A stretch of DNA of 64,000 bases from Chalciporus piperatus (Eukaryota; Basidiomycota; Agaricomycetes; Boletales; Boletaceae): positions 1-64,000 of the forward strand of contig JBBPTG010000089.1 of assembly GCA_038093975.1 (NCBI GenBank). Direction: 5' to 3'. A program made the position numbers and the translations under genes. Below, in pieces: positions 2,264 through 58,967 of this stretch. The stretch's first letter is position 1; each line of letters starts with the position of its first letter. Under the pieces are notes generated by a model. It saw only the letters and a list, made by a program, of their open reading frames with translations. It had not been told where the DNA came from and made no database searches.

Positions 2264-3023
2264 TTACCAGTCAGGGGACTAGAAGAATAGGAATAGCATG
2301 AGCACGCCAAATTCTACAGCTGAAAGCGGTCAAGAACGTACGCTGCCGCGCTTCCAGTCAGGAGGCTAAAGAGAGTAACATGAACACACCGAGCCAGCTA
2401 AAGAGAGCAAGGACGTACGCTACTACGCTTCCAGTCGGGGGGCTACGAGAATAGTGTGAACACACCGAGGACAACTGAACGAGAAAATGAACTTACGTAT
2501 TGGCGCTCTTCAACTTGAACTTCAGCGCTTCGCTTCCAGTCAGAGGGCTAAGAGAATAGTATGAACACACTGGCACCCGACGCGGCCGAAAGAGAGCCAG
2601 GACATACGCTACGCTTCCAGTCTGGGGGCTACGAAAATAGCGTGAACACGCCGAGGGCAACTGAAGGAGAAAAAGAACATACACTTTGCCGCTCTTCAAC
2701 TTCAGCGCTTCTCTTCCAGTCAGGGGGCTAAGAAAATGTATGAGCACACCCGACACGGCTGAAAGAGAGCAAGAACATACGCTACTACGCTTCCAGTCAG
2801 GAGGCTACGAGAATAGCGTGAACACGCCGAGGACAACTGAAAGAGAAAAAGAACTTACGCTTTGGCGCTGTTCAACTTCAGCGCGTTGCACTGGGGGATC
2901 CTAAAGATCCGAATTAGTCTCATCCCCTGACGTGCCGATCAGTGAACCGGGGTAACTCACAACAGGGGCGGCGATCACTGCAGCTGCAGCGGCGAGAATA
3001 AAGAATAGATGGGAGAACTGCAT
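2264..3023 (-). CDS. K1: secreted Kex2-type repeat peptide precursor, PPDWKR class
   Basis: Nine exons, all phase 0: 2961-3023, 2859-2900, 2781-2804, 2683-2727, 2608-2628, 2497-2547, 2419-2442, 2342-2365 and 2264-2278. They give 102 residues. Exon 1 is a 21-residue signal peptide (MQFSHLFFILAAAAAVIAAP). The other exons encode alternating long (PPDWKRSAEVEERQS-like) and short (PPDWKRSS-like) units, and the last exon ends SPDW-stop. Six KR sites would release SSPPDW, SAEVEERQSPPDW and similar peptides. The introns (53-63 nt) fall in two alternating sequence classes, so the duplicated unit was exon pair plus intron pair. Cleavage by Kex2 is inferred from the KR sites. Function is unknown; pheromone-like, RiPP-like or effector peptides are all possible. 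Confidence 0.85.
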
Positions 3024-3094
3024 CGTTTAGTCGCGTGTATGAGAGGAGCTCGAAGGGGGCAGTGGGTTGGGGTAGATTGGGAACGAAAAGGTCA

Positions 3095-3105
3095 CCTTTT
3101 ATGCA
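3095..3105 (-). promoter_or_regulatory. TATA box of K1
   Basis: TGCATAAAAGG on the minus strand, about 75 nt upstream of the K1 start codon. The same box, at nearly the same distance, precedes all eight K genes. Confidence 0.65.
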
Positions 3106-5049
3106 GGGGATACTTTAGACTAGCGAGTATCAATGGGCCTGTCACACAAACGATCTATACAAAACTGGAGGACGTGCTGACACGGGGTTTTGTGGACTCA
3201 GCGGGAGTGAATGGATGGCCAATGTCAGTCAGCGTTGTCGGATGAGAGAGTACAGTAATGAGAAAGCCCCCGAGAAGGGCACCCGCGCACATCCGATCCA
3301 CTCAATTACACTTTTTCTTCCTCACTCCGTCGCCCGAGTATGTATTCCTCTGCCATCGCGCACGCAGTCCGCCGGGTTGCGCATCCGGGGATCCGTGACG
3401 TGCGCACGTATTCCTGAGTTCATCACCACCTCAAAAAAAGACTCGGAGGGTCAGCTGGATACATTCGTGAACGAGATCGAGCTAGTACCATTGCCTCCAC
3501 GTTGGGGATCTTGTGGATTTCTAACCCCTTTCATGGTTCACCGGTCAGGGAATCATCTCATCTCGAATATAGAGTGTTGATGTATGATGCATGATGCCCG
3601 ATGCCACATGACCAATCTGTAATCATTATCTCCTCGACTTCATCGTCGGGTAGGCGGATGCAACAATCCTCGGTTGACAGTCCACTGGCATGTGCCATCT
3701 TGACGTCTGGCAGCCGGTCTCAGCCGGTACAACCCTGATCTTCTACTTACCGCGGCCGACGTGGTACCCCCAATCTTATTTCGAACATGGATCGTCGGTG
3801 GGTGCCCGGTGCGGCCATATTAGCTTTCCCAGCTTCACCGCCAAGGACGCGGATGGTGACACCGTCATGATCATGGGATGTAGACCACACCCACGATCTT
3901 GCTAAACGGGTGCGGATGCAGAATGCCTGCCGCGGCACTCAACACGGATCTATCAAACTATTATATGAGCATCCAATGAGAGCACGACGACGCGAACGAA
4001 ATGAACAATACCGATAAGATCATTCGGCGAAGGGGCACCCGCTTAAAGTATATGAACGAGGCCCGCCCCCCGCTCTAAACATGGGTAAGAAGTTAGTCTC
4101 GCAACCAGAAAGCGGAAGCATCGGGGTAACCAGACGTTGTGGATCCCGAGGCCATCCGAGGTGAAGACCAAAAAAGATGGTTACGAGGTGAGGTAAGAGA
4201 GGGTAAGAGTACTCAAAGTTCCTAGCAACATGACGTGGCCAAGTATCATGTGCTCCCAATACTCTGTACATGTAGGGATCGTCCAAGTCTGATCTACGCA
4301 CGAGTCAGATCTTCGGGGCTCAAACACGAGTGCGGGTGGCGGTGAGCGGAGTATACCGTTGGCCTCCGGGGTCGGGTCCGATCGACGGCTTGCCTCATAG
4401 ACGGTCTGGTCACCAGACTAAACAAACGCCCAGTTCGTTGCCTGATTGAATCATGATTTAGCCATCGGAAGGAAGAACGTCCGAGACTGTTTGCCAGTGG
4501 AAGAACGAACGTCACGAGTCCCGATTCCAAAAGTCGTGTTGACGCGGTCTGACATGGCCGACGTGTCTAGTCACATCACCAGGGGGCCAATTGTAGTCTC
4601 CAGTAGCCGACCTAATAAACAATATCACAGTCGATATTGTTATAACAGCCTTGACGGAGCCGTCGATCTGTCAGTAAACCACATGCCAGAACTAACAGCG
4701 GTACTAACATCTGCTAACATCACCTCCTGTCAACCACCATCAGGAAAAGGTCGGGTCACTGTGAGCCACTGCCCCAACTGTGGCACTGTAGGGAACTGGG
4801 AGGCAGTCCAGGAACTGTATGCAGGCCGTGACAGTAAGTCAGCTACAGTGAAATAGGCAGATAAGCAGCAAATGTCGTAGATTTTGTGTTGAAGCCGAGA
4901 GTCGAACACACGATACCAAAAATACACAATGTACACATTACATAACCGCTACACTACAGGAGTGTATTGGTAGAACAATCATTATGAATATATGACTATC
5001 AATTTCTGCAACGGGTGAAATTTTCACAAGTCTTTGCGTCTGTCATTGC
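3106..5049. other. repeat-rich non-coding stretch upstream of K1
   Basis: The part next to K1 resembles the region upstream of K2 (8.0-9.4 kb), including GGTCACC-rich and ACTTCACCGCC-like patches, so the promoter was duplicated with the gene. Bases 4646-4685 carry another copy of the GTCGATCTG(T/C)CAGTAAACCA dispersed repeat. A weakly tRNA-like stretch lies at 4880-4970 (see rejected). No believable gene is seen. Confidence 0.45.
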
Positions 5050-6873: not shown

Positions 6874-7499
6874 AAGGGCGTCGAAACTGATCAGGGAGCG
6901 ATGGAGATTGTTGAGAAGGACGGAGAAACAAGCAGAACAATAAGTATGTTAAATTCAATCTGTTTGTGGGGACAGGTTGCATATGTACGATATGCAATGG
7001 ATATGTACCAATTGACCGTGACTGTCTACGACTGCCAGCGACTGTCGGCAGTAGATCGGTCTGGGTGCAGAAATAGACATAGCTGTGGGCAGTTAGTATC
7101 TGATGGCATCTGTCCGACTGCAGCAACTGCATGCAGTCGCCTCAGACAGGTGACCTTTTCCTGATGACGTCAACCACGTAATATGTACATACTTACATTG
7201 TTCGCAACCAAATGTGTTTCCGAAGGAAGAGGCTGGCGGAGTGTTGGCGATAGTAAGTCATACAAACTGTATCGAAACAGTCGAGACAACTCACCAAAAT
7301 TTCGATATACCGAATAATCAACAAAAGGCACAAAAGGACAAGGTTTATTCCGAAGTCAAATGGTATATAGAAAATACATCAGAAGTAACGATGGCTCAGT
7401 CAGGATGAACAATAATAAAAGGAGGCACAAGCCTCACGATAAGGAATACAGGATAAACATAATACTATTTACAAGGAGTCACATTTATTCAACGGGATT
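6874..7499. other. repeat-derived non-coding stretch
   Basis: From about 7.13 kb the sequence matches the flanks of the hAT insertion near K1 (GTCAACCACGTAAT...TGTACAT) and the shared 3' region of K genes (AAAATTTCGATATACCGAATAA, then GGACAAGGTTTATTCCGAAG). It is the downstream part of the K2 duplication unit. No gene is seen. Confidence 0.5.
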
Positions 7500-7988
7500 T
7501 CAAGTAGGGGACTAGAAGAATAGCATGAGCACGCCAATTCTACAGCTGAAAGAGAGCAAGAACGTACGCCGCGCTTCCGGTCGGGGGGCTACGAGAATGG
7601 CGTGAACACGCCGAGGACAACTGAAAGAGACAAAGAACTTACGCTTTGGCGCTCTTCAACTTCAGCGCTTCGCTTCCAGTCGGGGGGCTAAGAGAATAGT
7701 ATGAAAACACCTGACACAGCTGACTCGAAAGAGAGCAGGAACGTACGCTACTACGCTTCCAGTCAGGGGGCTACGAGAATACCATGAACACACCGAGGAC
7801 AACTGAAAGAGAAAAAAAACTTACGCTCTGGCGCTGTTCAACTTCAGCGCGTTGCGTTGGGGGGTCCTATAGATCCGAATCAGTCCCATCCCCTGACGTG
7901 CCGACCGAATGAAACGGTCACTCACAACAGGGACAGCGAGCACCGCAGCTGCAGCGGCGACGATAAGGAATAGACGGGAGAATTGCAT
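7500..7988 (-). CDS. K2: secreted Kex2-type repeat peptide precursor, PPDWKR class
   Basis: Six phase-0 exons: 7926-7988, 7825-7866, 7747-7770, 7643-7687, 7568-7588 and 7500-7511. They give 68 residues. The signal peptide (MQFSRLFLIVAAAAAVLAVP) is followed by DPPTQRAEVEQRQS, PPDWKRSS, PPDWKRSAEVEERQS, PPDRKRG and SPT-stop. Compared with K1 it has fewer units, the last unit has W changed to R, and the C-terminal SPDW has become SPT. It lies immediately downstream of, and in the same direction as, the intact carrier gene (9.6-11.0 kb). That makes it the best candidate for the parental K locus, because carrier fragments accompany the other copies. Confidence 0.8.
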
Positions 7989-8057
7989 CGTTTAGTCGGT
8001 GAACGGCGTTGAGGAGACAAAGGGGTGGGGTGGGGTAGATTGGGAACGAGAAGGTCG

Positions 8058-8068
8058 CCTTTTATGCA
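8058..8068 (-). promoter_or_regulatory. TATA box of K2
   Basis: TGCATAAAAGG on the minus strand, about 70-80 nt upstream of the K2 start, as in K1. Confidence 0.6.
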
Positions 8069-9610
8069 GGGGGTACTTTAACCTGAGTAGCAAGGTGCCT
8101 GACACGCGAACGATCTGGAGGACGCACGTGTGTACTGTCAGTTGCTCACAAGGGGCTTTGTTGAGTCTGACCATGAGGGTCACTCGGGAGTGAGTGAATG
8201 GCCAATGGCAATCAGTGTTTTCGGAAAAATGAGAGAGTACAGCATAAAGGCCCCGAGAAGGACACGCGTGCCGGTCGATCTCAAGTCCGATCCACTCAAT
8301 GACACCTTTTCTTCCTCATCCATTGGCTGAGTATGGTGCGGGCCAATGAAAACCTCTTGGACCTGGTTCTCTGCCATCGCGCGTCCGGGACCCGCGACGT
8401 GCGGACGTATTCCTGAGTTCATCACCACTTCAAAAAAGAGGGTCAGCTGGCTACATATTCGCGAACGAGGGATCCAGCTGGATCCAATGCCTCCACTTTG
8501 GGGATCTTGTCGATTTCTAGCCCCTTGCATGGTTCACCGGTCAGGGGAACATCGCATGTCGAATATAGAGTGTTGATGCATGATGCCACATGCCACATGA
8601 CGCATACCAGTCCGTAATGGTCATGGTTCATCTCCTCGATTTCACCGTCGGGTAGGCGGACGCAACAATCCTCGTTTGATAGCCCGTGTGCCATCTTACC
8701 ACGAATATTGATTGCTGATGCATGACGTCTGGGGGCCGGGACTACTCTGGTCTTCTACTTACCGCCGCGGATGTGGATGGTGCTCACAATCTTGTTTCGC
8801 ACATGGAGTGTGGATGGGATACCTGATGCGGTCATACCAACCTTCTCAGCTTCACCGCCACGGACGCGAATGGTGACACTGTCATGATCATGGGATGAAG
8901 GAGGATGGAGGCCACACCCGTGATCTTGCTAACGGGTGCGGATGCAGATGCCTGCCGCGGCACTCGACGAATCCATCAAACTCTGATATGATCATCAAAT
9001 GGGAGCACGACGACGCGAACGAAATGTGCAGTACCGGTGTGATCATTCGGAGAAAATCCGAACAGGGGCGCCCGCCCGAATATGAATCGACGCACGACGT
9101 CAGATATGAACGAAGCCCGCCCCCCGCTCAAAACATGGGTAAGAGTTAGTCTCGCAACCAAACGTTATAGGAAGCGGAAGCTTCGGGGTCACCGGACGTT
9201 TTGGTCTTCGGAAGATCACGAGGCCGTCCGAGGCGAAGACCCAAACGGATGGTAACGAGATTTGGTTTCCTGGCAACATGACGTGGCCATGTATGATGTG
9301 CCCCCAATACTGGACCGTTCAAGTCTAATCTACGCACGAGTCTGATCTTCAGGTATGAACTAAACCCGGCCACCGCTTAAATACGAGTGCGGGTGGCAGT
9401 GAGCGCAGTATGAGTGCATTATGCATAGCAACTGTCGGACAAACCGCTCAAAGTTCCTGGCAACATGGGGGCCATGCATCGTGCGACCCAAATCGACGTT
9501 TCCATTTCCATCTATATATCTAACTCTGCCATCGAGACAAGCACCACACTTTGGAAAAATGGGACGGATCGTTTCGTGAATGCATGACCCACCAGATACC
9601 CGGATATTCA
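8069..9610. other. upstream region of K2, gene-free
   Basis: About 1.5 kb between the K2 promoter and the carrier stop codon. Its segments recur upstream of K1, K5, K6, K7 and K8 (for example TCCATTTCCATCTATATATCTAA-like sequence, near 9.5, 32.45, 41.96, 46.8 and 59.5 kb). No convincing coding frame is present. Confidence 0.5.
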
Positions 9611-11048
9611 TCATGAAGACGGAGACCCCAACTTTGCGAACAGGATAATCAATGCTAAAGCCCATTTCTCGAACTGTTCTTTGGATACGAACAAGAGTGC
9701 TTGAGAGAGCACAGCTTTGATGATTTGAGCAGACATCCCCTGAGTGCGCGTGACGTCAGTACCATACCAACGGAGCAGAGGAGTGACAATGGGGAAATTA
9801 GGCATGGGCATGGGAGAGGAAAGAGGTAGGAGAAGACCATATCGCACCTGATACCATCCAACGAAGCCTTCCGTTTGGAGGACACGCGTGAGGAGGGATA
9901 TTGCCCCTGTTTGTTTGGACTTGACAGGTTTCCCTGAGGATTGCGGGAGACCATCTGTGTTTTCTTCTGTCACGTCAGACGTACGCGCCTGGATCCTCAC
10001 TTTGGCCATAATGTATGGGTAGGTCACCTAACCGCAACATACGGACACGGTCAGATGTGACTGCAAACGGAAGGGGTAACTCACGATGGTTGCAAGAGTT
10101 TTGCTGAAGGCGCCGAGGAGAAAGGTTATACCAGGGGTAAGCTTATTAGCCGTACCAGCTGCAGCTTTCGCGAGGAGAAGGATGCTCTTCAATCTCTCGT
10201 ACATGCCGTATGTGATTGCTGGATTCACGGTGAGGACCATTCCGGGTTTAATACCTAACCAAAGGCCCGTTACGCCATCCTCGCGGATGATTTCTTGCGC
10301 AACTGCGAAAAACGAGTCGCTGGCGCGTGCGGTTCCATTGTCCTTCTCAGAGGCTTGGTTCGCGCGGAGAGAACTGCCTACTTGTTGCCGAGTAGCGATG
10401 ACGGAGACGGGAATTGTGAAGATTTGGGAGAGGCCACCAGCGAGAGCACCGAGGGAGAGTTCAGCGGCAGTGGAGAGGACGGGTGCTTTAGAACCAGCGG
10501 GCGATCGAGCGGTGAGTCGTTTGATATATGACGTGCGGAGGAAAGAGTAGAAGAAAAAGTACGCGTATTCTACGAACGAAAGGAAAAAGGTAAGTGAATC
10601 TGACGCGGTAAGGATATGTGGAACGAGGGATGGGGACATACGCATGGAGAAGGTGTTGAGCATCGTCGCTGCGAATCCGCGGTACCAGCCCAAGATACCT
10701 TCTGTCTTGAAGATCTCGAGAAGGACGGATAGCATGGTCAACTCGTCCTTGCGTTTTCCCTTGGCGGATGACGAGGTTGCTTGTATCCGTGTTTTGGCGC
10801 TATGAACGAACGTCAGCCCCTCAGGTTTGTACGGCCCTCATTCCTCTAAGACTCAGACTCACACATCCAACGGGTATACCACACTAAGATACACGACCAA
10901 GGTCATATCAGCTCCCGTGAAGCGTTGGAACTCATATACATAGACGAACTCACGCATTACTGAAACAAGCACCCAAAGCGCCAGCCAACGCTGCACCGAA
11001 CGGTGTTAGCTGTTGTACTGGCTTTGCCGACTTTGACTGGACGGACAT
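9611..11048 (-). CDS. ANT1: peroxisomal-type adenine nucleotide carrier (SLC25 family)
   Basis: Six exons: 10954-11048, 10863-10883, 10642-10799, 10085-10569, 9848-10027 and 9611-9739. They give 355 residues. Three carrier repeats carry Px(D/x)xx(K/R) signatures: YPLDVAKTRIQA, IPVSVIATRQQ and YPYIMAKVRIQA. The membrane segment around QYAYFFFYSFLRTSYIKR is typical of the PMP34/PMP47/ANT1 branch, which exchanges ATP and AMP across the peroxisome membrane for fatty acid activation. The start chosen is the ATG giving MSVQSKSAKPVQQLTPFGAA. Fragments of its last exons recur five times in the window, always beside K genes. The branch assignment is by eye, and another SLC25 subfamily remains possible. 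Confidence 0.85.
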
Positions 11049-14918: not shown

Positions 14919-16677
14919 ATGACTCGGGCAGCTCCTTCATCTCTCATTATGTAAGCGTCTTCAAGGTGGATCCCAATCAATTTGCAATCAAACTACTACA
15001 GCTCGGAGAGAATGGCTCTCTTCATCCCATCCCTTCTGTCTAAGGAAGACTGGAACAACCTTGGTGGTTCGTATAGCCACTTCTTTAGGTGCTCACCGTC
15101 CACTTACTCGTATCCGGAGCACAGTTGAACTTGAACGTGGAGAGCCATGCTATGTCAACAATTTGCCTCCAGAACTACTCTCGCGCATTTTTCAGTTCAG
15201 CATTGCCCACCAGACAGACTCTGGCCTCGCTGACAGCAATGATGCTGTCGCGTGTGAAGCAGAAACAGGTCGCTCCCAAGTCCCAGCGGCCTTCCGAGTC
15301 CCAGCCGTAACGTTGTTCTTCACACTCGGGACACTCTGTAGCATCTGTGAACGGGCCGGTATAAACGATACACTTGCGAATGCAGATGTCATTGATCATT
15401 TCTTCGACTCCGCTGAGGTCGCTGACAAGTCTTTTGACCTGGGAGAGACTTGGAAGATCGAGCCTGTCATGAGCATTGTTTCCCAGATTTGTCGTTACTG
15501 GCATGATGTGGCAATCGCGACCCCGTCTCTCTGGACTTCCATCACAATCACTCCACCTACACCAGACCACTGCATTGCTTATTTGCTGGAACGAACCAAA
15601 GACCTCCCCATAGACATCGACTGTTCAACACTTTCCTCGGGGGGCTATGAATTGCTGCTTGCACATGTGCATCGCTGGCGCTCCATGAAGATGACATTCC
15701 CGAGCTCTGAATCCATGGAGGGATTTCTTGAAGCTGCTTCTCAGCCATCCATCCCCGCCGCTGCCCAGATCACCACTTTACAACTCCAGCTAGGCATGGA
15801 TCAACCCCTCAGCAGGTGTCGCCGAGAAACCTACCCACCTGAATCATTCCTCACTCTCTTCGGTGGGTTGGCGCCGTGTCTCGAGCAAATAACGCTTTGG
15901 GGGGTGCACATAGACTGGAATCAGCACTGGATCTCCTCCGCATCTAATCTTACACACCTCGACCTCGGATTTCATGTGCACGAACCTTCCTTCTCTTGGC
16001 CGCAGTTAGTCACCATCTTGCGGGGGTCTCCGAAGCTGAAGAAACTCAGTCTACGCACAGACCTGCGGGGAATACCAGATGATTTCATGCTAGATAGTCC
16101 AATCCACCTTCTCGATTTGACCCACATTGTCCTCGGATACGATATTCATCTACTCGAAAAGGTTTACGTGCCAGCTCTCAAAAGTCTTGGTCTATGTCTC
16201 CACCATGAAGACTGCTACATGTTCTTCCCGGAGCTCGCCGACATGACAGGTCCCTTGCCCGATGCTCAACGTCGTCCTTTGCTCAGCGGTCTCGAAAAGT
16301 TCAAGGTCGTCTACATGCCCTGTAGATATTCGTCATCCGTCGAGTTCCTCTACGGAGCACTTCAGAACATCAAATCACTCACCCTTGCTCTTCGAGACTT
16401 TCACGACCACTTCCTCAAGCTCCTCGCCACCCCTTGCCCGTTGGCAGGACATGATGTCTGGCTACCTCACCTAGAAACTGTCTACCTCACGGATGCGTAC
16501 GAGAGCGCAGATGCCATCCAAGAGGTACTGCAGGAGCGGGAGAAGTTGGGGTATCCTATCAAATCATTGTTCGTGGACACATGTGATTCGGCCGATGAAA
16601 ATTTGCGGTTGAGCAGGTTGAAGGAATATGTGGAGAGGTTTGGCTTCTACAACGAAGTGTATGGGAGAGTGATGTAG
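14919..16677 (+). CDS. F-box protein with leucine-rich region
   Basis: Three exons, 14919-14950, 15002-15063 and 15125-16677, give 548 residues. The F-box reads NNLPPELLSRIFQFSI, followed by SQICRYWHDVAIATPSLW, the usual second half of basidiomycete F-boxes. The rest is LRR-like (NLTHLDLGFHV, SPKLKKLSLRTDL). It likely recruits substrates to an SCF ubiquitin ligase. The first two exons were placed by comparison with the partial copy at 24.4-25.5 kb, which conserves both splice sites. About 60 codons between F-box halves (AVTLFFTLGTLCSICERAG...) are absent from that copy, so they are an insertion here or a deletion there; a retained intron is also possible. Confidence 0.8.
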
Positions 16678-19800: not shown

Positions 19801-19812
19801 CAACAAAACCCC

Positions 19813-19901: not shown

Positions 19902-20324
19902 ATGCAGTTCTCCCGTCTATTCTTTATTCTCGCCGTTGCAGCTGCAGTGCTCGCTGTCCCTGTTGTGAGTGACCGTTTGCACTCCGGTTCACTGATCGGT
20001 ACGTCAGGGGATGGGACTAATTCGGATCGATAGGACCCCACAGTGAAACGCGCTGAAGTTGAGGCACTCTACAGCGTAAGTTTCTCTCTCTCTCTTTCAG
20101 TTGTCCTCAGTGTGTTCATGCTATTCCCTTAGCCCCCTGACTGGAAGCGAAGCGCTGAAGTTGAAGAGCGCCAAAATGTAAGTTCGTTTTCTCTTTCAGT
20201 TATCCTCGGTGTGTTCATGCTATCCTCGTAGCCCGACTGGAAGCGCGGCACCGTGCGTTCTTATTTCCTTTCAGCTGCGTCGGGTGTGTTCATACTATTC
20301 TCTTAGCCCACTGACCGGAAATGA
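19902..20324 (+). CDS. K3: Kex2-type repeat peptide precursor, truncated by a stop
   Basis: Five phase-0 exons, 19902-19964, 20034-20075, 20133-20177, 20232-20252 and 20307-20324, give 62 residues. After the signal peptide come DPTVKRAEVEALYS, PPDWKRSAEVEERQN, PDWKRGT and PTDRK-stop. In the fifth exon the codon that is CGA (R) in K1/K2 is TGA (20322-20324). This is a C-to-T change that removes the final KR and the following unit. Splice sites and sequence beyond the stop still resemble an exon and a terminal SP... exon. K3 is thus a shortened precursor or early pseudogene. Three KR sites remain. Confidence 0.6.
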
Positions 20325-24260: not shown

Positions 24261-24403
24261 CTCCGCATGGGGAGTATCATAATTCAACGTCCTCGGTTGA
24301 GACAAATGTTCCCAGGTGTTGTACACCTTCATTTATCGATATTACACACTCTGCGGTGACTCAATATTTGCCGACGAGCGCGGGGGGGAGCTTGAATTAT
24401 GAT

Positions 24404-25510
24404 GAATATCGTATCCGAGGACAACGTGGGTCAAATCGAGAAGGTGGATTGGACTATCTAGCATGAAATCATCTGGTATTCCCCGCAGGTCTGTGCGTAG
24501 ACTGAGTTTCTTCAGCTTCGGAGACCCCCGCAAGATGGTGACTAACTGCGGCCAAGAGAAGGAAGGTTCGTGCACATGAAATCCGAGGTCGAGGTGTGTA
24601 AGATTAGATGCGGAGGAGATCCAGTGCTGATTCCAGTCTATGTGCACCCCCCAAAGCGTTATTTGTTCGAGACACGGCGCCAACCCACCGAAGAGAGTGA
24701 GGAATGATTCAGGTGGGTAGGTTTCTCGGCGACACCTGCTGAGGGGTTGATCCATGCCTAGCTGGAGTTGTAAAGTGGTGATCTGGGCAGCGGCGGGGAT
24801 GGATGGCTGAGAGGCAGCTTCAAGAAATTCCTCCATGGATTCAGAGCTCGGGAATGTCATCTTCATGGAGCGCCAGCGATGCACATGTGCAAGCAGCAAT
24901 TCGTAGCCCCCCGAGGAAAGTGTTGAACAGTCGATGTCTATGGGGAGGTCTTTGGTTCGTTCCAGCAAATAAGCAATCAGTGGTCCGGTGTAGGCGGAGT
25001 GATTGTGATGGAAGTCCAGAGAGACGGGGTCGCGATTGCCACATCATGCCAGTAACGACAAATCTGGGAAGCGATGCTCATGAGGGATGGGACTCGGGTG
25101 GCCGCTGGGACTGGGGAGCGACCTGCTTCTGCTTCATACGCGACAGCATCATTGCTGTCAGCGAGGCCAGAGTCTGTCTGGTGGGGCCACAGGGGGGCGA
25201 TGCCGAACTGAAAAATGCGCGAGAGTAGTTCTGGAGGCAAATTGTTGACATAGCATGGTTCTCTATGTTCAAGTTCAACTGTGCTCCGGATACAGGTTAG
25301 TGGACAGTGAGCAGCCTAAAGAAATGGCGATAAAAACCACCAAGGTTGTTCCAGTCCTCCTTAGACAGACTCAGGGATGGGATGAAGAGAGCCATTCCCT
25401 CCGAGCTGTAGTAAGTTATTATATTAGTTTGATTGCAAATTGATTGGGATCCATCTTGAAGACGCTTACATAATGAGAGATGAAAGGGCGGCCCGAGCTG
25501 CCCGAGCCAT
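24404..25510 (-). pseudogene. truncated inverted copy of the F-box gene
   Basis: Near-identical to the F-box gene at 14.9-16.1 kb, in the opposite direction. Exons 25470-25510 and 25341-25405 and the third exon start (25278) keep the parental splice sites. A one-base deletion near 24975 (CACTGATT versus CACTGCATT) shifts the frame to an immediate stop. The copy ends abruptly at about 24404, after GYDIH, losing the last third. It lacks the 60-codon AVTLFF... segment of the intact gene. Substitutions are few, so the duplication is young. It is divergent from the Maf gene, with only 36 bp between the former start codons. Confidence 0.85.
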
Positions 25511-29200: not shown

Positions 29201-29474
29201 TTAACAAGTGAGCTGAGAAAAATAGTATGAGCACACCTCACCGTGACGCAGCTGAAAGAGAAAATAACGTACGCTACGGCATCCAACTGATGTAGGTTCG
29301 CGTGCTTCAACTTCGCGCGCTTCAGGGGCCTAAGAAAATAGTATGAACACAAATTAGTCCCATCCCCCTGACGTGCCGATCAATAAAACGGGAGTGCAAA
29401 CGGTCACTCACAAGGGGGGCGGCGAGCACGGCAGCTGCAGCGGCGACGATGAAGAATAGACGGGAGAATTGCAT
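29201..29474 (-). CDS. K4: degenerate member of the secreted peptide family
   Basis: Three phase-0 exons, 29412-29474, 29273-29329 and 29201-29212, give 43 residues. The signal peptide MQFSRLFFIVAAAAAVLAAP is intact. The second exon encodes APEAREVEAREPTSVGCRS and the last LTC-stop. No PPDWKR unit and no KR site remain, although the EVEARE stretch resembles AEVEERQ of K1. It may be a pseudogene that lost its repeat exons, or a short secreted peptide with one cysteine in the second exon and one in the last. The TATA box and start context are conserved. Confidence 0.5.
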
Positions 29475-31117: not shown

Positions 31118-31924
31118 TTAGGATCCAGGGAGAGGGAGGTCGCGCTTTGGATGGCCTTCATGACCTGCGATGTAGTCACGCTTTGGATGGCCTTCATGAT
31201 CTCCGATGAAGTCTGCATGACCTGCGATGTAGTCACGCTTTGAATGGCCTTCATGATCTCCGATGAAGTCTGCATGACCTGCAATGTAGTCACGCTTTGA
31301 ATGGCCTTCATGATCTCCGATGAAGTCTGCATGACCTGCGATGTAGTCACGCTTTGGATGGCCTTCATGATCTCCGATGAAGTCTGCATGACCTGCAATG
31401 TAGTCACGCTTTGAATGGCCTTCATGATCTCCGATGAAGTCTGCATGACCTGCGATGTAGTCGCGCTCTTCAAGGAGCTAAGAAAATAGTATGAGCACCC
31501 GACACAGCTGAAAGAGCAAATGAGCTTACCTGTCCAGGAGCAAGTCCACGCAATTGGCCTCCTCGTTGGCGCTCTTCAAGGAGCTAAGAAAATAGTATGA
31601 GCACCCGACACAGCTGAAAGAGCAAATGAGCTTACCTGTCCAGGAGCAAGTCCACGCAATTGGCCTCCTCGTTGGCGCTCTTCAAGGAGCTAAGAAAATA
31701 GTATGAGCACCCGACACAGCTGAAAGAGCAAATGAGCTTACCTGTCCAGGAGCAAGTCCACGCAATTGGCCTCCTCGTTGGCGCTCTTCAAGGAGCTAAG
31801 AAAATAGTATGAGCACCCGACACAGCTGGAAGAGAGCTACGGAGTGCAAACGGTCACTCACAGCAGGGGCGGCGAGCACTGCAGTTGCAGCGGCGACGAA
31901 AAAGAATAGACGGGAGAACTGCAT
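31118..31924 (-). CDS. K5: Kex2-type repeat precursor with five 19-residue KR-ended repeats
   Basis: Five phase-0 exons: 31862-31924, 31742-31795, 31636-31689, 31530-31583 and 31118-31477. They give 194 residues. The signal peptide is MQFSRLFFFVAAATAVLAAP. Three identical exons encode LLEERQRGGQLRGLAPGQ. The last exon encodes LLEER, then five units of DYIAGHADFIGDHEGHSKR (S or P before KR), a short DYIAGHEGHPKR, and DLPLPGS-stop. Cutting at KR would yield five 17-residue His/Asp-rich peptides, one 10-mer and one 7-mer. A conserved tyrosine opens each core, as in dikaritin RiPP precursors, but no UstY-type enzyme is in the window. Pheromone-like, metal-binding or effector roles are equally open. 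Confidence 0.85.
31178..31462 (-). repeat. five 57-bp coding tandem repeats
   Basis: Exact 57-nt period, five units, inside K5 exon 5, followed by a 36-nt short unit at 31142-31177. Copies differ at only a few bases (ATC/ATT, TCA/CCA), so the array is recent or homogenised. Confidence 0.9.
31530..31795 (-). repeat. three 106-bp exon-intron tandem units in K5
   Basis: Each unit is a 54-nt exon plus a 52-nt intron (GTAAGCTCATTTGC...TTCTTAG), essentially identical between units. Duplicating a whole phase-0 exon with its intron adds 18 residues without disturbing frame or splicing. Confidence 0.9.
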
Positions 31925-32000
31925 TGTTTACTCGGTGAATGGCTTGTAGGAGAAGTGGGCTGAGAGGGTGGGTTGGGGTAGATTGGAAACGAAAAGGCCA

Positions 32001-32009
32001 CTTTTATAC
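32001..32009 (-). promoter_or_regulatory. TATA box of K5
   Basis: TATAAAAG on the minus strand, about 80 nt upstream of the K5 start codon. Confidence 0.6.
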
Positions 32010-32556
32010 TGGGGATCCTTTGGTGATACTTACTAGTCTTCTCAGCTTCACCGCCATGGATGCGGACGCCGCCATGATCATGGGATGCCTGCTATCGATG
32101 CACGACGTTAGATGTGAACGAAGCCCGGCCCCCACTCAAACCATGGGTAAGAGTGCTCAAAGTTCTGGCAACATGACATGGCCATGTACCATGTAGCCCC
32201 AATACTTTGTACATATATGGATCCTTCGAGGCAGATCTACGCACGACGTTAGTAGATGTGAACGACCGCGGGCGGCCCGCTCAATTGAACACGAGTGTGG
32301 GGTGGGAGTGAGTGCAGTATAAGTAGCAGTCGTGAGACAAACCGAAGTCCCCCTAAGCAGGCCGAACATTGAACGAAGAGTCGTTCCTTCTCACTACGGA
32401 CAAACCGTGGCAACATGGGCCATGCATCGCACGACCCAAATCGATGCTTCCATTTCCATCTATATATCTAAGTCTGCCATCGAGACAAGCACCACACAAC
32501 GGAAAAATGGGACGACTCGTTTCATGAATGCATGACCCACCGAATGTCGGATATTC

Positions 32557-32850
32557 ATCATGAAGATGGAAACCCCAACTTCGCGAACAGAATCATCAAT
32601 GCTAAAGCCCATTTATCGAAACGTCCTTTGGATACGAACAAGAATGCTTGATTAAGCACGGGCTTGATCATTTGAGCGGACATTCCGTGGGTGGGCGTGA
32701 TCTCAGTTCAGTCAGCAACATACCAATGGAGGAAAGGAGTGAGAATGGGGAAACTTGGCATGGGCTTGGGAGAGGAAAGAGGTGGGAGAAGACTAGACCG
32801 TACCAATAGCACCAAACGAAGCCTTCCGTTTGGTGGCGGGTTTCTGAAGT
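32557..32850 (-). pseudogene. carrier gene exon 5-6 relic upstream of K5
   Basis: The minus strand keeps the carrier's last exon (ATCATGAAGATGGAAACCCC, GCTAAAGCCCATT), the intron before it and the very end of exon 5 (GGCTTCGTTTGGTG). The copy stops at 32848. It lacks any start or the first four exons. Confidence 0.75.
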
Positions 32851-40463: not shown

Positions 40464-41545
40464 TCTGTGTCAGTGTCTGAGGGGTCGAGGGTCAACGTTT
40501 AAATGTGGTAATACTAACGACGTCGTTGTGGCTCGCAGTCAGGTTACAAGCAGACTGGACTCAGACGTGCAGTGGGGTCGGGTAGGTCATGGTATTGCGG
40601 ATGAACAAAGGCATTGAAGTAGGTCAATGTTGTCTCAGGCTCAACTTTGGCTCCTTCCACCGACGAAGGTTGACGACCAACTTTACAGTTTAAAATAATG
40701 GACCATACATGGGATGTCAATCCATGGACATAGGACCATGGCCCGGGGTGAGTACTCGAGTCCTGCCATGATATACTTGATCTCCGTTGGCTACTAGAAA
40801 TGCTTACACAGACTTCCGCCCATCGGATTGTCCCAAACCTTCAAAATGATTCTACTATTAAGCATCTGCCGTGGACGGAAGGGCCTATCCCATTCTGTTG
40901 GATTAGTGACGGTATGAGCCAACCCATTGGCTTGACAGCCCAGAACGCTGCAGGCACGCGGAAGGTATATTGATCACTCCTCCATGGATTTCTCGACCCT
41001 ACCCATAATCTCAAACAAACTCACACGAAATGATTGAAACCATCGTTTGCGACCGAACCAGGATTTAGCATCATGGCCTGGCCGATACGATCTCAATCTA
41101 TATCCGCAATGTCGTGCCATGCAATCGAGCTGTTGGACTGACTTGGACCACGTCGGTTGTTCCGCCTAAACGATATCAGCCATCACGGGTTTCCACCACT
41201 TGAGGCTGACACTCGTCTCCATCCCATCCGCATTCTTCGAAGCCTCAAGCCTCTGTTGGTTGTGAATCCTTTCATAGATGAAATCTTTGGATTATAGGGT
41301 TTTTGTACCAGTGCTTCAAGTTCCTCGGCCGCCACCATAGATTCCTTCGTGAACATCCTCATGAATGTGGATCTCCTCGAGGTGGAAGATGCGCGGTCGT
41401 TGACTGTCGTCAACTTGTTGAGCTCGACATATGCTCGGAGCTCTCCTCGGGCCCTGGCAGGCCCGGGATGTCAGAACCAATGAGAGAGCATGCGAGTCGT
41501 TTGACTCACAAACCGCACTGCGATAGTGTCCGTATGTGCGGTTAG

Positions 41546-41886
41546 GTGATACCCATACATTATGACGAAAGTGAAGATCCAGGCGCGGACGTTTGACGTG
41601 ACAGAAGAAAATACAGACGGTCTCCCGCAGTGCTCTCGGAAATGCAGCGGCACCCGCCCCCAAACGGAAGGCTTCGTTGTATGGTATCAGGTACGATCTG
41701 GTCTTCTCCTACCTCTTTCCTCTCCCATGCCCAATTTCCCCATTCTCACTCCTTTCCTCCATTGACATCGCGCCCACCCAGGGAATGTCTGCTCAGATGC
41801 TCAACTCCCAAGCACTCTTGTTCATAGGCAAAGAACAGTTCGAGTGATGATCCTCTTCGCAAATTTGGGGTCTCCGTCTTCATAAT
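41546..41886 (+). pseudogene. carrier gene exon 5-6 relic upstream of K6
   Basis: Begins exactly at the carrier exon 5 acceptor (GGTTAG). It keeps exon 5 (KVKIQARTFDVTEENTDGLP), the following intron and exon 6 (GMSAQ, LFIGKEQFE). The central part of exon 5 is deleted and the frame is broken. It is in the same orientation relative to K6 as the intact carrier is to K2. Confidence 0.8.
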
Positions 41887-42410
41887 GAATATCCGGCATT
41901 TTGTGGGTGATATATTCATGAAACGATTCGTCCCATTTCTTCGTTCTCGATGGCAGACTTAGATATATAGATGGAAATGGATGCATCGATTTGGGTCGCA
42001 CGATGCATGGCCCATGTTGCCACGGTTTGTCCGTAGTGAGAAGGAACGACCGTCTTCGTTCAATGTTCGGCCTGCTTAGGGGGACTTCGGTTTGTCTCAC
42101 GGCTGCTACTTATACTGCACTCACTCCCACCCCACACTCGTGTTCAATTGAGCGGGCCGCCCGCGGTCGTTCACATCTAACGTCGTGCCTCGAACGATCC
42201 ATATATGTACAGAGTATTTGGGCTACATAGTACATGGCCACGTCATGTTGCCAGAAATTTGAGCACTCTTCCTCATGGTTTGAGGGGGGGCCGGGCTTCA
42301 TTCACATCTAACCTCGTGCGTCGATAGCAGACATCCCATGACCATGGCGGCGTCCGCATCCATGGCGGTGAAGCTGAGAAGACTAGTAAGTATCACCAAA
42401 GGATCCCCAG

Positions 42411-42418
42411 TATAAAAA
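42411..42418 (+). promoter_or_regulatory. TATA box of K6
   Basis: TATAAAAA, 85 nt upstream of the K6 start codon. Confidence 0.65.
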
Positions 42419-42495
42419 GTGGCCTTTTCGTTTCCAATCTACCCCAACCCACCCACTCAGCCCACTTCTCCTACAAGCCATTCACCGAGTAAACA

Positions 42496-42837
42496 ATGCA
42501 GTTCTCCCGTCTATTCTTTTTCGTCGCCGCTGCAACTGCAGTGCTCGCCGCCCCTACTGTGAGTGACCGTTTGCACCGATTCACTGGTCAGCACGTCAGG
42601 GGATGTGACTAATTCGTGTTCATACTATTTTCTTAGGTCCCTGAACCCCAGCTTGATGGACTCGGCCTTGGACTCCTTCAGGAGCGGGGATATGTAAGAT
42701 CATTTGCTCTCTCAGTTGTCCTCGGTGTATTCATGCTATTCTCGTAGCCCGACAACTTGAAGCGTGCCTCGTGGCGTATGTTCTTGCTCTCTTTTAGTTG
42801 CCTCGGGTGTGTTCATACTATTTTCTTAGCTCCCTAA
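42496..42837 (+). CDS. K6: short member of the secreted peptide family (one KR site)
   Basis: Exons 42496-42558, 42637-42693, 42748-42775 and 42830-42837 give 51 residues. The signal peptide MQFSRLFFFVAAATAVLAAP precedes VPEPQLDGLGLGLLQERGY, PDNLKRASW and a terminal PP-stop. Exon 3 is 28 nt, so it breaks the phase-0 rule and forces the early stop. If exon 3 were skipped, exon 4 would read in phase 0 to 42877 (LPKERDLPLLESTDM). Both outcomes are possible and RNA would decide. KR would release ASWPP. Its inverted duplicate K8 has the same 28-nt exon, so this structure predates the duplication. Confidence 0.6.
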
Positions 42838-43575
42838 AGAGCGCGACCTCCCTCTCCTGGAGAGCACGGACATGTAAGTTCGCTTTCCCGTTCAGTTGTT
42901 TGCCGTGTGTTCACCTTATTCTCACCGGTTTCAGCTGTGGAGTTCGGCGTGCTCGTGCTATTCTTCTGGAAATCCCGTGACACAAACACGACTCGTTGTA
43001 AATATCATGTTCATCCGTTGTCTTTCTTATCGTGAGGCTTGTCGTCCTTCTATTCGGAATAAACCTGGTCCCATTTATCCCCTTTCTTGATTATTCCGCA
43101 TCCCTGAATTTCTGTGTCGATATTTTGTTAACAAAGCGGAAAATATAAATCGGCGAAGTATCCATGAAGTGCTGGCGAGTCGCCGGGGTGTCGGCCGCGA
43201 CAAGAACGAGCCGATACAGTGTGTATGACTATCGCAATCAAGTTACAGCAACCCTTTTTCATCCCCTTCGGAAACACTGGCACATTTGGTCGGGATCAAT
43301 GTCTGGGCTGGCGCCAAGTTGAACCAACTTTAAACTTAAAAAATAATCGACATGGACATGGACCTTGGGTGAGTCTAGTGAAGAGTGAACGACTGTCTTC
43401 ATCCGACTCTTGGGTCTGTCTAGGGGAGACTAGGGTGAGTCGTGGTCCACACTTGATCTCCGTTGGCCCCCTCCATCATGATCGACTGGAACCTAAGTTG
43501 CCTAACTTATGGGCCATTGGATTGTCCAGGATTATCCCGCTCCCGGAGAGCCATCCCATGTAGTACCTGAAGTAG

Positions 43576-44882: not shown

Positions 44883-46322
44883 ATGTCGCCTCAGTGCAAT
44901 CGGACTGGATTGGGCGTACATTAGGCGGTGCGCACGGTCTGGATCGATGCGCAATCGTGAACGTATATGGAACACGGCCGTCAATATTGAGCGAGTTTCA
45001 GATCTGTCTGGTGTGTAGTTGGATTTGCTTTCGGAGGAATACCCAGCGGTACTGTTTTCGTCGAGACCCTCGGAGGATCTAGTACCAGATTCATCGTGCG
45101 CCGTCGAGCGTGCTGGATTAATTGTTTATGAACTTGACGAAGTAGCTTACTTGGGAGAAATCTGATCCCTTGATAGTCAACGTGTTTACACCTCAAAAAA
45201 TCACAAAAGACCTGGTCGGAGTTGACCGTACAAAGGAGTGACACAGCCACTGTAGGGACGTTCGTTCTTCCTTCCGATGACCGTGGCTAAATCATGATTC
45301 AATCAGACAACGATATCCAGTGGCCTCCTCCAGGCTGTTCCGGGACCAGTGGATGTTGGTTTGGGGGTACGCTACAAAGCGTTGCTATCGTGCGTGTCGT
45401 CGTGTCGTTGGTTACTGTAGAGGCTTTATCGATTCAGGAACTGAAAGTGAAATTGGGCGTAGGCGACCTCCAGCACCGAGTCAAGCGTCAACAAGAACTT
45501 GGCTCCGACCACCTCAGGCTTTAAATAAAGCTTATATTGTTCAGCCGTCTCATTGTCAACCCAATGATATCAAGATCAGTCGTGTCCTCCGTTGGCTCAA
45601 ATGCGGCGTTCAAAAACGTTAGCGTGGCCTCTTTCCGTCGGCTACTTGAAGTACACAGACTTCCGCCCATCGGATTGTCCCCAGCCTTCAGAATGATTTT
45701 TCTCTAAGTAAAGTAAGCAATTGCCTGTGGACGGAAAGGTTGTTGGCAATGATTTATTCCATTCCGTCGGATTAGTGACAGTTAGAGCCAATCAGAACGC
45801 TGCAGGCATGTTGAAGGTACGTTGATCACTCCTCGATTCCACCCATAATCAGGATTCAGTATCATGGCCTGATACGATCTCAATCTATATATGTCATGTC
45901 ATGCTATCGAGCTGTTGAACGGATTTGTACGTCGTTTTTTCCGCCTAAACGGGCCTAAACGATATCAGCGACCACGGCTCGTCAGTCTGAAGTGGTGGAA
46001 ACCAGTCGGATCGCAATTCTTCGAAGCCTTAAACTCTGTCGGTTGCGAATTCCTTCATGGATGGGATCCCTCGGATTATAGAGTTTTTGTACCAGCGCTT
46101 CAAGTTCTTTGCCCGCCACCACAAATTCCTCCGCAAACATCCTCATTCTCCTCGAGTCGGAAGATGCGCGGTCGTTGGCCGTCGTCAACTTGTTGAGCTG
46201 GACAAATGTTCGTAGCTATCCTCGGGCCCTGGCAGGCCCGGGGTGTCAAGATCAGTGTGAGAGCATGCAAGTCGTTTAACGCATAAACCGCACTACAATA
46301 GTGTCCGTATGTTGTGGTTAAG
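44883..46322. other. repeat-rich stretch upstream of the K7 unit
   Basis: From about 45.3 kb the sequence parallels the K6 upstream region (ACAGACTTCCGCCCATCGGA near 40.81 and 45.66 kb). It includes, near 45985-46190, a minus-strand fragment encoding ELEALVQKLYNP that recurs at 41.2, 49.1 and 60.15 kb. No intact gene is seen. Confidence 0.45.
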
Positions 46323-46713
46323 TGACCTACCCACACATTATGGCCAAGGTAATGATCCAGGCGCGTACGTCTGAAGTGACAGAAGAAAACGCAGACGGTC
46401 TCCCGCAATGCTCACGGAAACGCAACGGAAACCCGCCACCAAACGGAAGGCTTCGTTTGGTGGTATTGGTACGGTCTAGTCTTCTCCCACCTCTTTCCTC
46501 TCCCAAGCCCATGCCAAGTTTCCCCATTCTCACTCCTTTCCTCCATTGGTATGTTGCTGACTGAACTGAGATCACGCCCGCCCACGGAATGTCCGCTCAA
46601 ATGATCAAGCCCGTGCTTAATCAAGCATTCTTGTTCGTATCCAAAGGACGTTTCGATAAATGGGCTTTAGCATTGATGATTCTGTTCGCGAAGTTGGGGT
46701 TTCCATCTTCATG
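46323..46713 (+). pseudogene. carrier gene exon 5-6 relic upstream of K7
   Basis: Starts at the carrier exon 5 acceptor, mutated from TAG to AAG. It holds exon 5 (KVMIQARTSEVTEENADGLP), an intron and exon 6 (GMSAQMIKPVL, ALMILFAKLG), ending at the same stop region as the intact gene. Internal exon 5 sequence is missing and no upstream exons are present. Confidence 0.8.
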
Positions 46714-47261
46714 ATGAATATCCGACATTCGGTGGGTCATGCATTCATGAAACGAGTCGTCCCATTTTTCCGTTGTGCGGTGCTTGTCTCGATGGCAGAC
46801 TTAGATATATAGATGGAAATGGAAGCATCGATTTGGGTCGTGCGATGCATGGCCCATGTTGCCACGGTTTGTCCGTAGTGAGAAGGGACGACTCTTCGTT
46901 CAATGTTCGGCCTGCTTAGGGGGACTTCGGTTTGTCTCACGGCTGCTACTTATACTGCACTCACTCCCACCCCACACTCGTGTTCAATTGAGCGGGCCGC
47001 CCGCGGTCGTTCACATCTACTAACGTCGTGCGTAGATCTGCCTCGAAGGATCCATATATGTACAAAGTATTGGGGCTACATGGTACATGGCCATGTCATG
47101 TTGCCAGAACTTTGAGCACTCTTACCCATGGTTTGAGTGGGGGCCGGGCTTCGTTCACATCTAACGTCGTGCATCGATAGCAGGCATCCCATGATCATGG
47201 CGGCGTCCGCATCCATGGCGGTGAAGCTGAGAAGACTAGTAAGTATGGCCAAAGGATCCCC

Positions 47262-47271
47262 TGCATAAAAA
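47262..47271 (+). promoter_or_regulatory. TATA box of K7
   Basis: TGCATAAAAA about 80 nt upstream of the K7 start codon. Confidence 0.6.
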
Positions 47272-47348
47272 GCGGCCTTTTCGTTTCCAATCTATCCCAA
47301 CCCACCCACTCAGCCCACTTCTCCTACAAGCCATTCACCGAGTAAACA

Positions 47349-48072
47349 ATGCAGTTCTCCCGTCTATTCTTTTTCGTCGCCGCTGCAACTGCAGTGCTCG
47401 CCGCCCCTGCTGTGAGTGACCGTTTGCACTCCGTAGCTCTCTCCCAGCTGTGTCGGGTGCTCATACTATTTTCTTAGCTCCTTGAAGAGCGCCAACGATC
47501 CGGAGGCCAATTGCGTGGACTTGGTCCTGGACAGGTAAGCTCATTTGCTCTTTCATCTGTGTCGGGTGCTCATACTATTTTCTTAGCTCCTTGAAGAGCG
47601 CCAACGAGGAGGCCAATTGCGTGGACTTGCTCCTGGACAGGTAAGCTCATTTGCTCTTTCATCTGTGTCGGGTGCTCATACTATTTTCTTAGCTCCTTGA
47701 AGAGCGCCAACGAGGAGGCCAATTGCGTGGACTTGCTCCTGGACAGGTAAGCTCATTTGCTCTTTCAGCTGTGTCGGGTGCTCATACTATTTTCTTAGCT
47801 CCTTGAAGAGCGCCAACGAGGAGGCCAATTGCGTGGACTTGCTCCTGGACAGGTAAGCTCATTTACTCTTTCAGCTGTGTCGGGTGCTCATACTATTCTC
47901 TTAGCTCCTTGAAGAGCGCCAACGATCCGGAGGCCAATTGCGTGGACTTAGTAATGACTTCATCGTAGGTGATGAAGGCCATCCAAAGCGTGACTTCATC
48001 GCAGGTCATGAAGACTTCATCGGAGGTCATGACGGCCATCCAGAGCGCGACCTCCCTCTCCCTGTATTCTAA
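47349..48072 (+). CDS. K7: repeat peptide precursor, partner of K5 with contracted KR array
   Basis: Six phase-0 exons: 47349-47411, 47477-47533, 47587-47640, 47693-47746, 47799-47852 and 47905-48072. They give 149 residues. The signal peptide is identical to K5. Four exons encode LLEERQR(S)GGQLRGLAPGQ units. The last exon joins one more such unit to SNDFIVGDEGHPKR, DFIAGHEDFIGGHDGHPER and DLPLPVF-stop. K5's five DYIAGH units are here reduced to two diverged ones, with the core tyrosine replaced by phenylalanine and one KR changed to ER. That the same frame stays open in both copies despite different repeat numbers supports real coding. Confidence 0.8.
47587..47852 (+). repeat. three 106-bp exon-intron tandem units in K7
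   Basis: Same 54-nt exon plus 52-nt intron unit as in K5, near-identical to it. A slightly diverged 57-nt-exon unit precedes the array, and a fused exon follows it. Confidence 0.88.
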
Positions 48073-57735: not shown

Positions 57736-58169
57736 TGTGCAGCGGAAGATGAAGGATCGGGACGGTACGAGTTACGCTCAGAGTTATTGATCTGGTCGAA
57801 TTCACACATAATGAACCTAGGCACGATACGTACCGGTTTAAGTTGTGCATGTTTGGGTTCGTGAACGGAAACTTGCTCGGACGCGAACTGGAAGTTGACC
57901 AAAGGGACCGTCGGAAGTCGGTGGCCATGATCACGAGCGAGGTCCGACTGTGTTCGGTGACAACTGACAGCAGTTTGACGTGTTCAGCTACTCTGAGGCA
58001 TGTAACTTGTCATTGTACGATCTCTTATGATCTACACTTCAACATACTGTATGATATCTTGATCTCGACAGCAAGCCTCTTGACAGAGCCGTCGATCTGC
58101 CAGTAAACCACGTGGAACTGACAGCGGTACATCCCTGGCGATCACCTCGTCGACGACGTGAACTGGTAA
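57736..58169. other. dispersed repeats beside duplication B
   Basis: Holds a relative of the 48.8/51.7-kb repeat and, at 58073-58112, a copy of GTCGATCTGCCAGTAAACCA. The nearby AATGCATTGATCGCGACCAAATG matches the unoccupied form of the hAT target near K1. Confidence 0.5.
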
Positions 58170-58625
58170 TGCATTGATCGCGACCAAATGTGTCTGAAGG
58201 GGATAAAAAAGTGTTGCTGTAACTTGATTGCGATAGTCTTATAAACTGTATCGGCTGAGTCGTTCTTGTCGCGGCCGACCCGCCGACTCGTCAGTACTTG
58301 ATACTTCCGCGATTTATATTTTCCGCTTTGTTAACAAAATATCGACACAGAAATTCCAGGATGCCGAATAATCAAGAAAGGGGATAAATGGGACAAGGTT
58401 TATTCCGAATAGACGGACGACAAGCCTCACGATAAGAAAGACAACGGATGAACATGATATTTACAACGAGTCGTGTTTGTGTCACGGGATTTCCAGAAGA
58501 ACAACACGAGTATGCCGAACTCCACAGCTGAAACCGGTCAGAATAACGTGAACACACGGCAAACAACTGAACGGGATAGCGAACTTACATGTCCGTGCTC
58601 TCCAGGGAGAGGGAGGTCGCGCTCT

Positions 58626-58967
58626 TTAGGGAGCTAAGAAAATAGTATGAACACACCCGAGGCAACTAAAAGAGAGCAAGAACATACGCCACGAGGCACG
58701 CTTCAAGTTGTCGGGCTACGAGAATAGCATGAATACACCGAGGACAACTGAGAGAGCAAATGAGCTTACATATCCCCGCTCCTGAAGGAGTCCAAGGCCG
58801 AGTCCATCAAGCTGGGGTTCAGGGACCTAAGAAAATAGTATGAACACGAATTAGTCACATCCCCTGACGTGCTGACCAGTGAATCGGTGCAAACGGTCAC
58901 TCACAGTAGGGGCGGCGAGCACTGCAGTTGCAGCGGCGACGAAAAAGAATAGACGGGAGAACTGCAT
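58626..58967 (-). CDS. K8: short member of the secreted peptide family, duplicate of K6
   Basis: Exons 58905-58967, 58770-58826, 58688-58715 and 58626-58633 give 51 residues with the same predicted protein as K6: signal peptide, VPEPQLDGLGLGLLQERGY, PDNLKRASW, PP-stop. The 28-nt exon 3 is preserved. Downstream of the stop the skipped-exon reading would continue LPKERDLPLPGEHGH and into the next splice donor. K6 and K8 differ there by one base, so K6 would stop at DM while K8 would read on. Either the short form is the functional one in both, or K6 has lost the longer form. Confidence 0.6.

Follow-up and report, generated by a model that had tools for sequence, protein, structure and literature searches.

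The described systems closest to the genes reported here are the KEX2-processed repeat proteins (KEPs) of fungi, which are defined as secreted proteins with internal repeats and KEX2 sites between the repeats (Le Marquer 2019), and for which expansions in some genera have been reported (PMC6339444, PMC7329392); here and below, statements on published systems refer to the available parts of the cited papers. Genus-restricted types include S-1, with 37 KEPs in two Peniophora strains, and S-2, with 8 in one Hypsizygus strain (PMC7329392). KEP 490115 expressed in Pichia yielded QYKAPSW and QMRPPSW, mass spectrometry detected the peptides GPPAPSW in Coprinopsis, SGTGEASAADW in shiitake and SGVAADW in Pleurotus, and single-Arg cleavage and pyro-Gln were described for Coprinopsis KEPs (PMC9769878). 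KEPs form a large and poorly understood class of fungal peptide precursors. Here we describe a family of eight genes, K1 to K8, with a common leader exon in a stretch of 64,000 nucleotides (nt) of the bolete Chalciporus piperatus (assembly GCA_038093975.1, contig JBBPTG010000089.1, positions 1 to 64,000; hereafter, the window).

These genes are, with a probability of about three in four, precursors of KEX2-processed secreted peptides that were diversified by duplication, gain and loss of units and intron recombination, and that would serve in signalling or biotic interaction. Behind this reading stand the anatomy and homology of the genes, selection on the exons of K1 and K2, chimeric introns, and KEX2-like and STE13-like genes in the genome; secretion, splicing and cleavage are predicted from them. 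As a recently duplicating family with its cores on separate micro-exons and with visible intron-intron junctions, it gives a tangible example of the way in which novel secreted peptides may come about.

Leader exon, gene models and peptide units

All eight loci of the window have in common a TATA box, a 5' leader, a start context and a 63-nt exon for a putative signal peptide, copies of which lie at 3023 (-), 7988 (-), 19902 (+), 29474 (-), 31924 (-), 42496 (+), 47349 (+) and 58967 (-). The eight-member family proposed for 2264..58967 from the sequence alone is thereby recovered, its limits being the stop of K1 and the start of K8. The product of the exon follows the pattern MQ[FL]S[RH]LF..A.A..A..A.P. 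(21 residues), and the leader MQFSRLFFFVAAATAVLAAP has, by eye, the shape of a signal peptide. The genome (35.5 Mb) holds at least 13 leader copies on five contigs, a lower bound, with eight on the contig of the window (C89), two on C163 and one each on C273, C301 and C324. The common promoter, 5' untranslated region, start context and 21-codon first exon proposed for the eight loci extend to the other copies, in that the TATA box (GCATAAAA or GTATAAAA, about 76-89 nt 5' of the ATG) and the ATG context recur in 13 of 13; the sequence directly before the ATG is TAAACR in 12 copies and TAAGCG in K13 (box and context tallied by eye on the sequences of the 13 copies). A weak genome match on C10 (E = 1.2) was dismissed, since the opposite strand there carries a long open frame of coiled-coil-like type.

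The gene models of the window are as follows.

2264..3023, minus strand: K1, 102 amino acids (aa); five PPDWKR units, one PSDWKR unit and a terminal SPDW
2961-3023 (leader), then 2859-2900, 2781-2804, 2683-2727, 2608-2628, 2497-2547, 2419-2442, 2342-2365 and 2264-2278 (micro-exons), minus strand: exons of K1 in the hand splice model
7500..7988, minus strand: K2, 68 aa over six exons; PPDWKR twice and PPDRKR once
19902..20324, plus strand: K3, five exons, 62 aa; PPDWKR, (N)PDWKR and a terminal PTDRK
29201..29474, minus strand: K4, 43 aa in three exons; neither KR nor repeat; chimeric intron 1
31118..31924, minus strand: K5, 194 aa; leader and three identical 54-nt micro-exons (LLEERQRGGQLRGLAPGQ); chimeric intron 1
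within 31118..31924, minus strand: last exon of K5, five DYIAGHADFIGDHEGH[SP]KR units and one DYIAGHEGHPKR
42496..42837, plus strand: K6, four exons, one of them 28 nt long, 51 aa, C-terminal PDNLKRASWPP; chimeric intron 1, phase-1 last intron
47349..48072, plus strand: K7, 149 aa; leader and four LLEERQR(S)GGQ... micro-exons; chimeric intron 1
within 47349..48072, plus strand: last exon of K7, one KR unit and one ER unit (DFIVGDEGHPKR, DFIAGHEDFIGGHDGHPER)
58626..58967, minus strand: K8, structure and protein as K6; coding sequence identical, one intron substitution

Hand models were used instead of automatic splice chains, which were over-long for K1, K3, K5 and others. Their coding exons are mostly 8-63 nt long, which suggests why such genes escape annotation. 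The phase-0 micro-exons read earlier from the sequence hold for 32 of the 34 introns of K1 to K8, but not for the last introns of K6 and K8, which are in phase 1; over all 13 models 50 of 54 introns (52-82 nt) are in phase 0. Because the splice sites were chosen with the family in view, this regularity is no independent test.

KR sites, a further part of the sequence-only reading, are present in seven of the eight window members, but unevenly, the bodies of K1 to K8 holding 6, 3, 3, 0, 6, 1, 1 and 1. At least three repeats split by KR, RR or KK, as in the KEP definition, are clear in two of the eight (K1 and K5, six KR each), K2 and K3 fit loosely (three KR and two tryptophan-ended units each), and K4, K6, K7 and K8 fall outside. 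Tryptophan stands directly before KR or the stop seven times in K1 (and K12), twice each in K2, K3 and K13, and never in K4 to K11. Outside the window, K12 (C301) has the coding sequence of K1 with 5 intron substitutions, the cores of K13 are TPDW and APSW, and K9 (C163) is near-identical to K5, with three full DYIAGH units against five and no substitution. Copies of the DYIAGH unit turned up in K5, K7 and K9 and nowhere else.

Coding, descent and chimeric first introns

K1 and K2 can be aligned exon for exon over exons 1-4. In the predicted frame, exons 2-4 differ by 7 synonymous and 2 non-synonymous changes (proportions per site, pS 0.311 and pN 0.023; Fisher p = 1.4e-4), and frames 1 and 2 give no such pattern (p = 0.68 each). 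The PPDW type is therefore coding and under purifying selection, with the frame running through three micro-exons as predicted, and is not a dead repeat. Unlike the phase count, this codon-substitution test is independent of the hand-picked splice sites. Changes among 12 PDWKR-type units of K1, K2, K3 and K13 are likewise mostly silent (pS 0.477, pN 0.036; K12 was left out, its coding sequence being identical to that of K1). K1 and K12 are identical at all 309 exon positions, but not at 5 of the 451 positions in introns (p = 0.084). Total substitutions in K1/K2, K1/K3 and K2/K3 gave no exon constraint, which appears only in the synonymous/non-synonymous split. Between K5 and K7 exon change (7.9%) exceeds intron change (1.4%, p = 2.2e-4), in an alignment that is unsafe owing to tandem repeats.

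The repeat bodies had been called unrelated, which proved wrong, as the types are homologous over their units, introns included, and in most 3' regions as well. Comparing the window with itself by BLAST aligned 7414-8079 (K2) with 43054-42398 (K6) at 68% over 714 columns, and the stretch 2072-2340, which covers the end of K1 and its 3' flank, with 48384-48139, 3' of K7, at 72%. When K1 was aligned globally with K4, K5, K6, K7 and K8 (z-scores from 60 simple shuffles), gene bodies including introns reached z 8-18 and coding bodies alone z 1-4, and the 3' sides gave z 2-12, weakest for K1/K4 and K1/K6 (2 and 3). Of 12 pairs, six have post-leader exons that are less conserved than the introns (p < 0.05) and six show no significant difference, with p values uncorrected and pairs not independent; in K2/K6 exons are 65% and introns 85% identical (p = 0.0013), in K3/K6 69% and 87% (p = 0.0022). 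The homology of promoter, introns and most 3' regions across types indicates that the family diverged from a common gene: judged from these alignments, its members are diverged products of whole-unit duplication, and between types the coding body diverged fastest.

The first introns record a further process. In K4, K6, K8 and K11 the first 58-61 nt of intron 1 match the leader intron of the PPDW genes and the last 19-22 nt match an internal micro-exon intron; in K5 and K7 the switch between parents comes after 22 nt. With two parents the alignment scores of all six introns (K4, K5, K6, K7, K8 and K11) reach 51-66, and with the best single parent 16-33, although K5/K7 and K6/K8 are near duplicates and the independent cases are fewer; the gain in 11 control introns was only 0-5. 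Intron 1 of K9, identical to that of K5, and intron 1 of K10, one base from that of K6, were left out of the test. This is most simply read as the outcome of two or more events of deletion or unequal recombination joining a leader intron to an internal one, with phase 0 preserving the frame, by which the leader would have been re-joined to downstream micro-exons. We infer the direction of re-joining by taking the PPDW type as ancestral. Of the earlier picture of a constant leader with swappable cassettes, the re-joining stands, but the cassettes are diverged whole-unit duplicates rather than unrelated.

A broader proposal, which we put forward tentatively, is exon shuffling at the scale of peptides: each core would occupy a phase-0 micro-exon of its own, and short introns of similar sequence would recombine, repeatedly re-joining one leader to different or newly grown cassettes, as at the two or more separate junctions in the first introns of the paralogues. 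If true, new secreted peptides could be formed without breaking frame, promoter or secretion.

Two duplication units account for four of the genes.

41174..43301, plus strand: K6 duplication unit; inverted copy at 58172-60292 with K8, 96.9% over 2136 columns
46428..48051, plus strand: K7 duplication unit; inverted copy at 31232-32844 with K5, 93.6% over 1632 columns

These recent duplications (K6/K8 97%, K5/K7 94%), together with the five DYIAGH units of K5 against three in K9, point to continued turnover. Stretches upstream of K5 to K8 (32408-32836, 41526-42022, 46301-46864 and 59443-59939) match 9458-10048, which lies between K2 and a mitochondrial carrier open reading frame (ORF; 10031-10837), and by eye the match includes the last exons of the carrier; the duplicated units seem to have carried this carrier-side piece along. 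K9 (within C163:33500-42500) has the coding part of K5 minus two units and a near promoter resembling those of K7 and K11, a patchwork that suggests gene conversion between copies.

Other elements of the window include a non-autonomous mobile element at 953-1914, hAT-like as judged by eye, with 12-bp terminal inverted repeats (TAGTGATGTGCA), an 8-bp flanking repeat (TGCATTAT) and a GC-rich interior. It is absent from the ~99% identical copy on C301, where a few bases of that flanking repeat are missing from the empty site. At the window end, 62793-64000 forms a long inverted repeat (~1.2 kb, 83% over 1232 columns) that is probably a fold-back element or one resembling a miniature inverted-repeat transposable element (MITE), and an F-box-like gene (PF12937) at 14923-16674 has an inverted partial copy at 24401-25083 (98.5% over 684 columns). 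Rfam and tRNA scans of the window gave no match.

Predicted processing and rival explanations

As precursors of secreted peptides, each of these genes would encode a pre-pro-peptide with the 21-residue first exon as signal peptide, followed by short units supplied by phase-0 micro-exons, and cleavage after KR would fall to Kex2 in the Golgi. The genome holds a P_proprotein (KEX2-type) gene on C2 and a DPPIV_N (STE13-like) gene on C65. K1 to K3 would release short linear peptides, mostly PDW-ended, for example SSPPDW and SAEVEERQSPPDW, perhaps with trimming at ER to pyroglutamyl-QSPPDW; the stretch SAEVEERQ-SPPDW suggests extra cleavage at a single Arg giving an N-terminal Q. The predicted product of K5 is a 17-residue peptide, DYIAGHADFIGDHEGH[SP], present in several copies per precursor. 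The set would diversify by segmental duplication, as repeat or exon-intron units are gained and lost, and through intron recombination linking the leader to a different micro-exon. The predicted peptides of the PDW type and the 17-residue DYIAGH type are open to direct search as SSPPDW, (pyro-)QSPPDW, SAEVEERQSPPDW and DYIAGHADFIGDHEGHS/P.

Several observations weigh against this reading. The splice sites of all 13 models were picked by hand, the last units of K2 and K3 have no tryptophan, and K4 has no KR and K6, K7 and K8 one each. The selection test reaches the PPDW type only, the types of K4 to K8 being too similar or too short, and for the K1/K2 leader exon alone the synonymous/non-synonymous split does not reach significance (p = 0.24). 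In the protein collection neither spliced K1, with 46 candidates, nor spliced K5, with 7994 scored, had a match at E <= 10, in a search that is blind to unannotated micro-exon genes, so conservation beyond the C. piperatus genome is not supported. As a control, the neighbouring SMP-30-like gene has 405 relatives in the same collection, Boletales included; among the 120 listed the best is from Melanogaster broomeanus (71%), with Paxillus, Phlebopus, Gyrodon and Hygrophoropsis at 69-67%. A good share of the family may also be decaying.

Carried further, this last point becomes a rival that we consider possible but doubtful, namely a multicopy family that is for the most part in decay, in which live genes would be limited to K1, K2 and perhaps K5 and the other members would be pseudogenes that recent segmental duplication and gene conversion have kept similar. 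It would account for K4, possibly a decayed member, for the altered last units of K2 and K3, for the ends of K6 and K8 after a phase-1 intron, for exons less conserved than introns in half of the pairs, and for units of 94-97% identity as recent duplicates. However, in all 13 copies the leader is open, a TATA box is present and the GT-AG introns leave an open frame, K6, K8, K10 and K11 share the same open frame to ..NLKR[AD]SWPP, and the KR-bounded unit of K5 was expanded in frame.

That the products are effector-like peptides for a plant partner, as proposed for KEPs of plant-associated fungi, we judge unlikely. Many Boletales are root symbionts, the best relatives of the SMP-30-like gene (among the matches listed) are from Boletales, and the bodies evolve fast; yet the cultivated mushrooms with cores of the -DW type need no plant partner. 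The occurrence of -DW cores in cultivated mushrooms is taken from PMC9769878, as is a point in favour of effectors, that six Coprinopsis KEP knock-outs had no phenotype in axenic culture.

Much less probable are cyclic dikaritin-type (ustiloxin-like) precursors of ribosomally synthesised and post-translationally modified peptides, cyclised by UstYa (DUF3328) oxidases. Dikaritins use tyrosine, which is present in the DYIAGH cores, the cores are repeated and KR-bounded, and the genome has UstYa genes (PF11807, 5 matches). These matches are confined to C42, C71 and C78, with none on the family contigs C89, C163, C273, C301 and C324, so a dikaritin cluster at the K loci is not supported; the PPDW cores moreover have no tyrosine, and no oxidase domain turned up among 20 ORFs scanned in part of the window. 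C78 and C71 each carry two UstYa matches, 1-6 kb apart on opposite strands, and are possible dikaritin-type clusters elsewhere in the genome.

Mating pheromone precursors are the least credible alternative: the architecture resembles that of ascomycete alpha-factor precursors, and SA follows two and SP one of the six KR of K1, but by eye never as the repeated XA/XP tract after a KEX2 site that forms the STE13 signature, the C-terminal CaaX box is found in 0 of 13 models, and basidiomycete sexual pheromones are of the a-type only (PMC6339444).

Comparison with known precursor systems

The sequence-only reading knew of no described family with these cores. For the PPDW type this has to be withdrawn, as KEP peptides detected by mass spectrometry end in -AADW, -APSW and -PPSW (PMC9769878), but the leader and the DYIAGH cores have no relative in the protein collection, which contains Boletales proteins. 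When we summarise the peptides of PMC9769878 as the motif -[AP][AP][DS]W before KR or the stop, it fits by eye 5 of 7 cores in K1, 2 of 2 in K2, 1 of 2 in K3 and 1 of 2 in K13, leaving PSDW, SPDW, NPDW and TPDW outside; the likeness of PPDW and APSW to KEP cores is a motif match and not a homology test, with no KEP sequences aligned.

With the tryptophan-core KEPs (Coprinopsis cinerea 490115 and 447393, Lentinula edodes 2599, Pleurotus ostreatus 1091723; PMC9769878) the family shares a putative signal peptide, short cores before dibasic sites, tryptophan-ended cores (PPDW, TPDW and APSW here; QYKAPSW, QMRPPSW, GPPAPSW and SGVAADW there) and a possible monobasic cut giving N-terminal Q. It differs in having one core per predicted phase-0 micro-exon, which the available part of that paper does not mention for those KEPs, and in lacking the repeated XA/XP (STE13) tract of several of them (PMC9769878). 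In addition, its leader has no detectable relative and its other paralogues carry quite different cores (DYIAGH..., SWPP). The Peniophora and Hypsizygus types are likewise a single KEP type amplified within one basidiomycete genus, although introns and exons are unmentioned in the main text of PMC7329392.

Two systems of Rhizophagus are comparable in gene structure. The AGL cell-surface proteins have a conserved signal-peptide exon and adjacent intron, and repeat bodies that diverge faster than introns, but they are anchored by glycosylphosphatidylinositol, have one or two introns, are not multi-exon Kex2 precursors, and were compared between species (PMC8786786). The SP7-like effectors have a signal peptide and a conserved intron before the first repeat, but in the available text their repeats are not described as separate exons, and they act in plant nuclei (PMC11333574). 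One core per exon was not found described for KEP genes in the available open-licence literature. The class, the KEPs, is known, and the micro-exon architecture is new as far as this limited literature goes. A constant leader with a hypervariable core is also the plan of conotoxin and MSDIN precursors, which differ from the K1 to K8 family in leader, protease and organism.

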